From IMG/VR virus record IMGVR_UViG_3300021185_002040, positions 1 to 24,063 of that record: 24,063 nucleotides of DNA; one strand, given 5' to 3'. Below the pieces are notes generated by a model. The model was not told the DNA's origin. It searched no databases and saw only the letters and a list, made by a program, of their open reading frames with translations. The stretch is from a virus. Made by a program: the position numbers and the translations under genes. Shown one piece after another: positions 10,651 to 20,323 of the stretch (positions are counted from its first letter, which is position 1; each line of letters starts with the position of its first letter).

Positions 10651-11094
10651 ATGAGTAAACAAAAGAAAAAATTTAAAGACACAAAAGTTGGTCAATTTAT
10701 CTTAAAAAAATTACCTGGTTTTGTTGGCGATATACTTCCCGAAAAAGGTGTTTTAGGAGTGGTTAAAAATTTAATTGATAACGAGCCTGAATTGACAAGT
10801 CAAGATAAAGTACAATTGCACAATGAACTGGTTGAGTTATATCAATTAGAAGTTGCGGACAGAGATTCGGCTAGAAAACGAGAAGTTGAAAAGGCTAAGT
10901 CAGGAGGTATTGACTTTATGTTTAATTTAACTGGTGTTATTGGGTTAGGTGCTTTTGCTTTTATTATTTATGCGATTGTATATTTACAAATACCAGAATC
11001 TAACAAAGAGGTTTGGATTCATTTAATTGGAATTTCTGAAGGAATAGTTTTATCTATTTTCGGTTATTTCTTTGGTTCTGCGGTTAGGAAGTAG
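10651..11094 (+). CDS. Putative holin (two-TM, phage holin-like superfamily)
   Basis: The 147-aa protein has a soluble N-terminal part with a charged helix (residues about 50-85) containing the box DRDSARKREVEKA. Two hydrophobic segments follow at about 91-113 and 122-143, and a short basic tail ends it (SAVRK). The DRxSAR box followed by C-terminal membrane segments is typical of 3TM-type holin families of Gram-negative phages. It would form membrane lesions that release the upstream amidase to the cell wall. The gene is the last of the + strand operon; its final 11 bp overlap the end of the convergent integrase gene. Confidence 0.75.
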   Translation: MSKQKKKFKDTKVGQFILKKLPGFVGDILPEKGVLGVVKNLIDNEPELTSQDKVQLHNELVELYQLEVADRDSARKREVEKAKSGGIDFMFNLTGVIGLGAFAFIIYAIVYLQIPESNKEVWIHLIGISEGIVLSIFGYFFGSAVRK

Positions 11095-12355
11095 TAACAC
11101 CGTTATTATTTAGTTTATCAATTAACAATGTAAACATTTCAGAAACTCTGTATTTCTTTAATATAGAGGAATGAAACCTTGTATACTTTTCTAACATTAG
11201 TGGTGCTTGGGTATCCTTGTAATGTTTTGAAATAGTGTTGTCACCTTGAAACATAAGTTCTCTAATATCAGCATCAGGAACGCTAAGTATAGACGCTGTT
11301 GTATTAAATGCTTTTCTTGCTGACTTGTAATTGTGACCAGTAAGTTTTTTAAACCTTCTTGCTTCAGACTTCCAGAAAAAATTCATAACACTATCACCTC
11401 CTCCAACAGGAAAGAAAGATTTATTTTCTGGGTTGATAATGTGGTTTATTGACTTTATTATGTCTTTGATCGGATTTAATCCCATGTATACTAAGCCCAT
11501 TTTATTAGTTTTTGATCTAAAATGTTTGTAAACCATATTATTCTCCCCAAACTTAAATTCTGATGTATTGTCGTAAGTTGAATTCACAAAAGATTTCATT
11601 TCTAATTTTTCAATATCTTTAGAATACATACCTCTCATTGAAAACATCATTAAATAAATTAAAACACATAGTCCGTTATTTTTAAACATTCTATCCTCTG
11701 TATCTAAATTATTAATAACTTCAATTAACTCATCTGATCTAATCCATTTTGGGGTGTAGTTGTTTATAGTATTAGTTCTTACGTGTGGAAAAACAGTATA
11801 AGTGATTTCATCTTTTACTGCATGCCCATGAATACCTTTAGCAGCCTTTTTATAAGAATTAAATGTTTGAGGGCTTCTGCCTTTTTCATTAAGATTTTGC
11901 TTAAGTTTTAACCAATTACTTTTATTGCATATATCTTCAAACGTCAAGTTTTTAATACCAAAATTAAAACCAATTGATTTCATTTTGTTTTTGTAAGTGG
12001 TGAAGGTTGTCTCCTTCATTTGGCTTTTTAGATATCGATCTAAATACGAAAGAATATCATTTACATATGATCCACTAGTTAACCTAGTTCTAGCCTCTTC
12101 GTATGATAAAACAGACACAACACTTTGAATATAGAGGTCTTCTACAATCGTGTTTAATTCCTTTATCTCTTTATTCTTCATTTCAAATAAAGGATGGTTT
12201 TTTTTTAGCCTTTTGTTTTTATTATCCCAATGTTTTTGAAATACTTTTATTTTGGTGTAAATCTTTTTATCAAACTGTTTATTTTTAAAACGAACATATA
12301 AAAGTGTTGTTCCATCTTTATTAGTTTCGTTTCTACTTCCAATTGATAAAGCCAT
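11084..12355 (-). CDS. int: Tyrosine recombinase / phage integrase with divergent catalytic boxes
   Basis: The 423-aa protein shows the Bacteroidota-type three-part layout: an N-terminal arm-binding domain (TTLLYVRFKNK, residues 16-26), a SAM-like core-binding domain (about 95-190) and a C-terminal catalytic domain. R241 (MFSMRGMYSKDIE) is the first catalytic arginine. The HxxR box reads KSAR (344-347). The second histidine box reads FQGDN (369-373) without a clear GH. The nucleophile is probably Y379 (KHYKD). I chose the ATG at 12355, which gives MALSIGSRNE, the usual family start. An upstream in-frame ATG at 12427 would add 24 residues translating across the TAGTCCC repeat, which looks like DNA-binding sequence rather than coding. 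The gene converges on the late operon. Confidence 0.88.
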   Translation of the reverse strand: MALSIGSRNETNKDGTTLLYVRFKNKQFDKKIYTKIKVFQKHWDNKNKRLKKNHPLFEMKNKEIKELNTIVEDLYIQSVVSVLSYEEARTRLTSGSYVNDILSYLDRYLKSQMKETTFTTYKNKMKSIGFNFGIKNLTFEDICNKSNWLKLKQNLNEKGRSPQTFNSYKKAAKGIHGHAVKDEITYTVFPHVRTNTINNYTPKWIRSDELIEVINNLDTEDRMFKNNGLCVLIYLMMFSMRGMYSKDIEKLEMKSFVNSTYDNTSEFKFGENNMVYKHFRSKTNKMGLVYMGLNPIKDIIKSINHIINPENKSFFPVGGGDSVMNFFWKSEARRFKKLTGHNYKSARKAFNTTASILSVPDADIRELMFQGDNTISKHYKDTQAPLMLEKYTRFHSSILKKYRVSEMFTLLIDKLNNNGVTTS

Positions 12356-12374
12356 AGTCCCTAATTTAGTCCCT
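12355..12374 (+). repeat. TAGTCCC pair, copy 1
   Basis: TAGTCCCTAATTTAGTCCCT: two TAGTCCC heptamers at a 12-bp period, next to the integrase ATG. It matches copy 2 at 12611-12630 in 18 of 20 positions and in the same orientation. It is a likely protein-binding site, for integrase arms or autoregulation. Confidence 0.7.
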
Positions 12375-12408: not shown

Positions 12409-12416
12409 CAAAGTTA
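12409..12416 (-). promoter_or_regulatory. TAACTTTG, candidate Bacteroidota -7 box for int (proximal)
   Basis: On the - strand this reads TAACTTTG, a match to the Bacteroidota -7 consensus TAnnTTTG, about 54 bp upstream of the integrase ATG. No clear TTG -33 element is present at the expected distance, so confidence is limited. Confidence 0.35.
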
Positions 12417-12460
12417 TGCACAAACAAGAAAAATCAGAGTAAACGTTATTAACATTATGG

Positions 12461-12468
12461 CAAAGTTA
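12461..12468 (-). promoter_or_regulatory. TAACTTTG, candidate Bacteroidota -7 box for int (distal)
   Basis: A second TAACTTTG lies 52 bp upstream of the first. A TTGAC follows the 11-bp repeats on the - strand, but only 13 nt separate its TTG from the TA, shorter than the usual spacing. The repeats lie directly behind it, where an activator or repressor could act. Confidence 0.35.
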
Positions 12469-12493
12469 TTGTACTAAAAGTCAATAATAATAC

Positions 12494-12537
12494 CCCTGGG
12501 ATACCCTTGGGATACCCATGGGACATCCGTGGGACAT
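12494..12537. repeat. Four tandem 11-bp repeats, CCNTGGGA(TAC/CAT)
   Basis: Units are CCCTGGGATAC, CCTTGGGATAC, CCATGGGACAT and CCGTGGGACAT, contiguous and in register. The third base runs C, T, A, G while TGGGA is fixed; the last three bases are TAC in the first two units and CAT in the last two. The period is about one helical turn, so a protein could bind one DNA face. It lies upstream of a promoter-like box for the integrase. Integrase arm sites, excisionase sites or operators are all possible. Confidence 0.8.
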
Positions 12538-12610: not shown

Positions 12611-12630
12611 TAGTCCCCAATTTAGTCCCC
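12611..12630 (+). repeat. TAGTCCC pair, copy 2
   Basis: TAGTCCCCAATTTAGTCCCC: the same 12-bp-period pair as at 12355-12374, differing at two positions (T to C). It lies at the far edge of the intergenic region, just after the 65-aa gene. The two copies frame the tandem 11-mers. Confidence 0.7.
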
Positions 12631-12635
12631 TCAAT

Positions 12636-12833
12636 TTAATTGTGTATAACTTTTTTTTTCTTTAGAAGTTTACTTATTCCAAGTGTGTCGTATATCCTTG
12701 GGCTTTTTGTTGACCTTTTATAAACGATGAAACCGTCATTTTTTAAAATTTGAATTGCATCTAATATTTTTTGCTCTTGTTCTCTAAAGTGATTAAATGT
12801 GTCACCCTCAATCGTACTTGTTTTAGTAGTCAT
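12636..12833 (-). CDS. Small protein of unknown function (65 aa)
   Basis: This last gene of the - strand early operon lies just before the integrase control region. The product is helical at the N-terminus (FREQEQKILDAIQILKNDG). A beta-like segment follows (FIVYKRS), and the C-terminus is lysine-rich. The helix-turn-strand pattern would suit a small winged-helix or excisionase-like DNA-binding protein, and the place next to int agrees, but no family match is recognised. It is separated from the upstream gene by 11 nt that carry a start-proximal box shared with other genes here (TAA, AACTAAAAAAT, ATG). Confidence 0.7.
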   Translation of the reverse strand: MTTKTSTIEGDTFNHFREQEQKILDAIQILKNDGFIVYKRSTKSPRIYDTLGISKLLKKKKVIHN

Positions 12834-19372: not shown

Positions 19373-20323
19373 CTACCTAAGTGAATATTGTTTTTGTTTT
19401 TCTATAGACTCTGTGTTAGAGTGTTTTACGTATCTATAGAAAGCAGTAGAGCCATTTGAGTGACCACTAATATTCCTTGCCTCGATTTCACTTAATCCTT
19501 TTGAAAGGTGATAAGTTATACCACTTGCTCTTAATTTGTGTGGTGTTATTATATCATATAAAAACTTTTCCTCATGTATAGGGTTTCCATTATGATCATA
19601 TGTGTAGATAATTTTCTTTTCGTGTAATTCTTTATAAGATTTAAGTAAAGTCTTTAGTCTTACTCTAAAATGTTGTTGAGAGTGTGTAAAAGCACCCTTG
19701 CCCTCTAAAAAAACACGTACATCCTTTGGTAAATAAAAAGATGATATTGAGCCAACTCCCTTCTTTGTAATTATTGTGACAACGCTTCCATCAGATGATG
19801 CTTTAAAGTTTACCAAGTCACTTACTCGCATACAAGAATATAGCATCAGCCTAGTGTAATACCATACATCTTCGAGTTCGATTCCCGGCTTGTTGTTATG
19901 TATTAACTCAACTTGTGTAGGTGTTAATGCAATTACCTCAGTCTGTAACTCTCTCATGCTTTGTAACTTAGGAAACATATAACCATAATAATCCTCTGCC
20001 TTTTTTAATGTAGTTCTTATAATCTTTAGGTGATTTTTTCTAGTGTTATGATGTTTACAATCGTCCAACATCATGTTTAAATATTTATTTACTTGTGTCT
20101 GTAAATTTCGGGTGACCTTGAGCCTGTCCTTTCTATTAGTAACGTTATTCAGATCTAAACTTTCAATATTAAAATTAAACTTGTAAGTAGACATTTGATT
20201 GTAAACTTGTCTGTAGGAGGTAATAGTAAGATTAGAAAACTTTTTACCATAGTTTAAGATTGAGCCATCTTCTAATTTAGTTATGATTTCCTTGAGTAAG
20301 GATATAAAAGTTGCTGTATTCAT
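19373..20323 (-). CDS. Second tyrosine recombinase (XerC/D-like)
   Basis: The 316-aa protein has an N-terminal helical core-binding region (about 1-125) and a catalytic domain with all usual residues: R166 (YSCMRVSDL), K187/K188 (ITKKG), HKLR with H262 and R265, GHSNGST with H288, and Y298 (or Y296) as nucleophile (YRYVKH). It has no arm-binding domain like the integrase at 11084, and is closer in size to Xer proteins. It may resolve multimers, invert DNA, or serve as the true integrase. It lies between a DnaA-IV-like gene region and the recombination genes. It has more canonical catalytic boxes than the first recombinase. Confidence 0.9.
   Translation of the reverse strand: MNTATFISLLKEIITKLEDGSILNYGKKFSNLTITSYRQVYNQMSTYKFNFNIESLDLNNVTNRKDRLKVTRNLQTQVNKYLNMMLDDCKHHNTRKNHLKIIRTTLKKAEDYYGYMFPKLQSMRELQTEVIALTPTQVELIHNNKPGIELEDVWYYTRLMLYSCMRVSDLVNFKASSDGSVVTIITKKGVGSISSFYLPKDVRVFLEGKGAFTHSQQHFRVRLKTLLKSYKELHEKKIIYTYDHNGNPIHEEKFLYDIITPHKLRASGITYHLSKGLSEIEARNISGHSNGSTAFYRYVKHSNTESIEKQKQYSLR

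Follow-up and report, generated by a model that had tools for sequence, protein, structure and literature searches.

A row of four short direct repeats lies upstream of an integrase-like gene (int) in the window, by which we mean the whole 24,063-nucleotide stretch of DNA that was analyzed. The array is intergenic, with the start of int (12355) on one side and the end of a 65-aa open reading frame (12636) on the other, both on the minus strand, and it forms a GC-rich island in a genome of 32% GC (Table 1). The sites are asymmetric and are arranged head-to-tail with 11-bp spacing. The first-pass annotation had described four in-register 11-bp repeats with C, T, A and G in turn at one position (N) and with units ending in TAC, TAC, CAT and CAT. 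Its sequence and coordinates were exact, and both the order of bases at N (as read on the plus strand) and the unit ends were correct.

Table 1. Features in and around the intergenic region upstream of int (window coordinates).
Feature	Position	Strand	Remarks
Integrase-like gene (int), 423 aa	11084..12355	-	N-terminal Arm-DNA-bind_5; diverged tyrosine-recombinase-like C-terminal part
GGGACTAAATTAGGGACTA, putative right arm-type repeat	12355..12373	-	overlaps int start
TTGTGCATAACTTTG	12409..12423	-	at -61 from int; inverted partner AAAGTTATACACAA at 12640-12653
TACAATAACTTTGCCATAATGTTAATAACG, conserved, putative attP core or promoter	12444..12473	-	starts at -118 from int ATG
Array, four head-to-tail 11-bp units	12494..12537	-	TRTCCCANGGX on int strand
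Array units as read on the plus strand	12494-12504, 12505-12515, 12516-12526, 12527-12537	+	CCNTGGGAYAY
GGGACTAAATTGGGGACTA, putative left arm-type repeat	12611..12629	-	kept in relatives, at variable distance
65-aa open reading frame upstream of int	12636..12833	-	helix and beta hairpin (two strands) predicted
AAAGTTATACACAA, left inverted copy	12640..12653	-	from repeat analysis and relatives

We treat the 423-aa product of int as a diverged tyrosine integrase, a provisional assignment that draws on domain matches and a predicted structure. The protein has an Arm-DNA-bind_5 domain (Pfam PF17293, E 3.9e-9), and its relatives gave weak matches to SAM-like integrase domains. The AlphaFold2 model was poor (mean pLDDT of 60). 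Seven of the eight best Foldseek matches to this model were tyrosine recombinases, including Tn1549 Int, XerA, lambda Int and Brujita Int, and none was significant (E of at least 0.2). There was no match to Int in the phage or plasmid collections searched, and no sequence relative was found in the PDB. The 3' ends of int and of a 147-aa gene on the plus strand overlap by 11 bp (11084-11094), which leaves no space for a terminator separating late transcription from that of int. A second tyrosine-recombinase-like gene (19373-20323, 316 aa, phrog_1) is in the early operon; its match to Pfam Phage_integrase was below the cut-off, and it is conserved in relatives both with and without the array.

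The repeated motif was confined to the array. Within the window, CCNTGGGAYAY matched four times on the plus strand (at 12494, 12505, 12516 and 12527) and nowhere else, compared to an expectation of 0.06, and four matches were reached in none of 100 shuffles. Self-identity across the array at a lag of 11 was 0.85, the highest in the window for any period from 8 to 20. As a control, 100 dinucleotide shuffles peaked at 0.81, or at 0.71 for segments of at least 40% GC.

The array was present in all of the close relatives and in none of the more distant ones. We compared two sets of viral contigs: seven with int 89-100% identical to that of the window (L002-L008, with int of L002 identical), and ten with int 56-67% identical (L068-L077). 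The first-pass annotation had proposed looking for the array beside int in related phages, and had regarded its absence from close relatives as evidence against a binding array; all seven of the close set carried it, with four copies in unchanged 11-bp phase, the first unit at -181 and the last at -148 from the int ATG, and no insertions or deletions between the array and the start of int. The period was exactly 11, with four units, in each of the eight array-bearing sequences, placing the repeats approximately one helical turn apart. The array was absent from all ten contigs of the distant set, which keep the rest of the module upstream of int at identical spacing. In these array-less relatives, the primase-helicase (85-95% identical), SSB (77-94%) and exonuclease (83-92%) were well conserved compared to int (only 56-67%). 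The array is absent where int is divergent even though other genes are up to 95% identical, and it therefore travels with the int/attachment cassette. In these comparisons it follows the int allele, independently of the genes for the 65-aa, RHH and DnaA-like proteins.

Constraint within the array is base-specific. On the int strand, TNTCCCA-GG (T1, T3, CCC, A7 and GG) was invariant at 32 of 32 positions over six array sequences, and only R, N and X varied. None of the 28 positions of the TCCCA-GG core was variable, compared to 9 of 16 elsewhere in the units (p = 1.6e-5). This is the pattern that a base-reading protein would be expected to leave behind. A neutral or selfish tandem repeat, generated by slippage and without function, seems to us very improbable. 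The drift at N, R and X would fit such an origin, as would the few unrelated arrays (5, 13 and 2 loci) obtained when viral contigs were scanned with a scrambled motif or at other periods. However, copy number, phase and distance are constant, and the array core is invariant while 14-40 of 95 sites in the left flank differ between most pairs of sequences. Based on these comparisons, we conclude that the array is real, conserved and probably functional, a cis element whose kind is known but whose motif is new.

We considered whether the array acts as RNA. The units are quasi-palindromic and can fold into a 44-nt hairpin, and a T-run on the plus strand could then stop rightward late transcription. 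Folds of the int-strand RNA had z-scores of -1.4 to -2.8, there was a terminator-like match on the plus strand (12515-12533), and the T-run follows the array in most array haplotypes. However, a long quasi-hairpin on the int strand is what any row of quasi-palindromes would give. There were no compensatory pairs, 88.3% of cells were paired compared to 89.2% in shuffles, and the plus-strand fold was no better than shuffles (z = -0.49). In addition, L003 has no T-run, and the invariant A7 and T3 were mostly unpaired or in wobble pairs. With no covariation, pairing that was not above shuffles and an unremarkable plus-strand fold, we rejected the hairpin or terminator, and we regard a role as RNA as distinctly unlikely. 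A search of Rfam gave nothing credible. We also rejected a coding sequence or leader peptide over the array, as the relatives have neither a conserved start nor a conserved peptide.

The array lies within a module whose layout resembles that of an attP, a core flanked by two arm-type repeats. On one side of the array is GGGACYAAATTRGGGACYA, the putative left arm-type repeat, and on the other is the conserved segment that may be the core or a promoter. The right part of the module was present in all 11 sequences compared, with or without the array: TACAATAAC at -118 (some copies with one base changed), TAACTTTG at -61, in some cases with a single base altered, and, overlapping the start of int, the GGGA elements (-18 and -6; some with a base changed). 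On the left side, relatives have GGGACYAAATTRGGGACYA, reworked in some, and the inverted CAAAGTTAT element at variable distance. Among viral contigs, the TACAATAACTTTGCCATAATGTTAATAACG pattern was found only beside these int genes. The designation attP is taken solely from this layout, because searches of 395 Bacteroidota genomes, and of subsets at order level, found neither lysogens nor attB; int likewise had no match in the Bacteroidota genomes searched. The array marks this attP-like control module, in which three elements keep rigid spacing and one, the array, is exchangeable, in a group of uncultured marine phages.

Another possibility, in our judgment unlikely, is that the array is the operator of a transcription regulator, from the phage or the host, that acts on int alone and plays no part in recombination. 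The place of the array upstream of int and its fixed distance to conserved boxes fit such an operator equally well, but a scan for sigma-70 promoters on the int strand of the array intergenic region found nothing recognizable. The TAnnTTTG-like boxes at -113 and -61 are, by eye, without a clear upstream TTG. The claim in the first-pass annotation that the array is upstream of a promoter-like box is therefore unproven. An int-only operator also overlaps with the reading that we prefer (below), because RDFs often do both jobs.

The main rival explanation is that the units are extra arm-type sites for the N-terminal domain of Int, comparable to the neighboring P' arm sites of lambda Int. Int does have an arm-binding domain, the array goes together with the int allele, and the array (TGGGAYA on the plus strand) and the arm-like sequences (GGGACYA and GGGAACA) have GGGA in common, in most cases with a pyrimidine after it. 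The left arm repeat of L070 and L075 contains TGTCCCA. However, GGGA is preceded by T in every array unit but by A or G in the arm repeats, and the invariant CC beyond N has no counterpart in the arm repeats. If the units were arm sites, the array should occur wherever the same arm domain does, and it does not: L068-L077 keep the arm domain, highly conserved, and the repeats without having the array. The arm domain is in fact the best-conserved part of Int in relatives with and without the array (66-77% identical, compared to 44-64% for the core-binding domain). This conservation of arm domain and arm-like repeats across both sets weakens the case for Int and makes it more likely that the array serves another protein; the GGGAY shared with the arms strengthens it slightly. 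On balance, we doubt that the units are arm-type sites.

None of the small phage proteins named in the first-pass annotation as possible ligands is supported as an array-specific partner. By position, the 65-aa gene is the natural RDF candidate, and a helix plus two strands are predicted in its product, where a small winged-helix protein would be expected of an RDF. Yet the gene dissociates from the array in both directions: it does not occur beside int in L005-L007, which carry the array, and is present in L068, L069, L076 and L077, all of which are without it. The RHH and DnaA-like genes are similar, and equally present, in relatives with and without the array. In the comparison of genes between array-bearing and array-less relatives, we found no other candidate that convincingly tracks the array.

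Our preferred reading, to which we give about even credence, is that the array comprises four head-to-tail sites for a DNA-binding protein in the attP-like control region of the int cassette, steering Int, int transcription, or both. The earlier proposal of a binding array beside int is borne out to the extent that the array occurs in all seven close relatives with fixed copy number, phase and distance and with base-specific constraint. We infer that one protein monomer would occupy each 11-bp turn, that the monomers would line up cooperatively on a single face of the DNA, and that the bound protein would bend or coat the P-arm. The bent or coated arm could then steer Int between integration and excision, regulate transcription of int, or do both, in the manner of 186 Apl, P2 Cox and lambda Xis. 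The ligand might be a directionality-factor-like (RDF-like) protein, a regulator, or Int itself. The place of the array between a putative arm-type repeat and the putative core is that of accessory sites, which we count in favor of this reading. Counting against the preferred reading, the relatives that have no array manage without one. If the array is the site of an RDF or regulator, it would provide a starting point for understanding how marine, probably flavobacterial, phages control integration.

The variable base N does not appear to set a gradient of affinity among the four sites, as the first-pass annotation had suggested. N is the most variable position, and its order on the int strand is permuted between relatives: CTAG in the window and L005-L007, CATG in L003 and L008, and CGTA in L004. 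That N drifts and is permuted while TNTCCCA-GG is fixed argues against a graded-affinity dial, and N is apparently the base that is not read. L004 and L008 are >99% identical around the array, and two of their four N differ: G and A have traded places in units 2 and 4, leaving the set of bases the same. In all, 4 of 47 array positions differ between these two phages, compared to ~0.7% elsewhere (p = 6e-4). Inversion was rejected as a source of the permuted units, as reverse-complement units were never seen.

Each base occurred exactly once at N in all five distinct arrays, in three different orders. Shuffling of columns gave p = 0.02 for the five arrays and p = 0.11 for the three distinct orders, so support for coordination is weak and the pattern, though intriguing, is unproven. 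One speculative explanation, to which we attach little weight, is that the array is selected to carry all four bases once, in any order, at the unread N. With no two units identical, slippage or a long perfect palindrome that would change copy number would be blocked, and four identical protein contacts would be kept. Arrays with identical units in other phages (L009-L044, below) have 3-16 copies; the int-side arrays are constant at four. Should further genomes obey the each-base-once rule, it would nicely illustrate how sequence design can keep tandem operators stable.

Similar arrays occur in other phages, possibly by convergence. A scan of viral contigs for the three-copy pattern gave 38 loci, seven of them in this int group and ~26 in unrelated phages. 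The latter have TATCCCAYGGC in 3-16 copies, many just after a minor tail gene (phrog_1924), and no int homolog. In the marine group L009-L044 (for example, L034:2239-2417 and L026:9156-9334), TATCCCAYGGC is on the coding strand with a period of 11 and some spacings of 21-23; the arrays differ greatly in copy number, and several contigs stop partway through one. The unit and period are nearly those of the int-side array, whereas N is only C or T in most, and there is no homologous int and no shared window protein. Because the control scans described above also yielded a handful of unrelated arrays per motif, convergence is plausible and we do not claim a common origin. An unrelated phage family (L018:876-933, L021:7175-7232 and L046:3841-3898) has intergenic tandem CTTCCCAAGGG units, also with a period of 11. 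We rejected a link to arrays in genome contigs, where the 21 matches were dispersed one-offs across phyla with other spacers.

Several known systems use short direct repeats in a comparable way. The centromere iterons bound by RHH/ParR proteins, as in parC of plasmid R1, are 11-bp repeats and, like the array, are head-to-tail; here there is no par operon, and the presence of the RHH gene in these phages does not follow that of the array. The tandem arm-type sites of lambda (P'1-P'3) and the P/arm sites of ICEMlSymR7A IntS resemble the array in being short direct repeats (~10-11 bp) beside int in a module of ~280 bp. They differ in that the GGGACYAAATTAGGGACYA repeats already fill the arm role here, and relatives with the same arm domain are without the array. 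Cooperative binding of attP repeats by small RDFs, which bend DNA and often regulate promoters as well, is well documented. The operators of published RDFs are direct repeats one helix turn apart, and attP of phage 186 has five Apl operators as direct repeats with 10-11 bp spacing (PMC7498355). The filaments of RdfS bear a general resemblance to these (PMC11963761). The array has in common with the sites of 186 Apl, P2 Cox and lambda Xis that direct repeats, one turn apart, lie next to core and arm sites for Int, which are putative here. Its motif is different, longer and GC-rich, with a strictly conserved core. Those systems are in Enterobacteria, whereas the host of the array phages is apparently from the Bacteroidota, and no RDF gene was recognized here. 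By analogy, the array would work most like the Apl sites at attP of phage 186, which we offer as a likeness and not as an assignment to that class.
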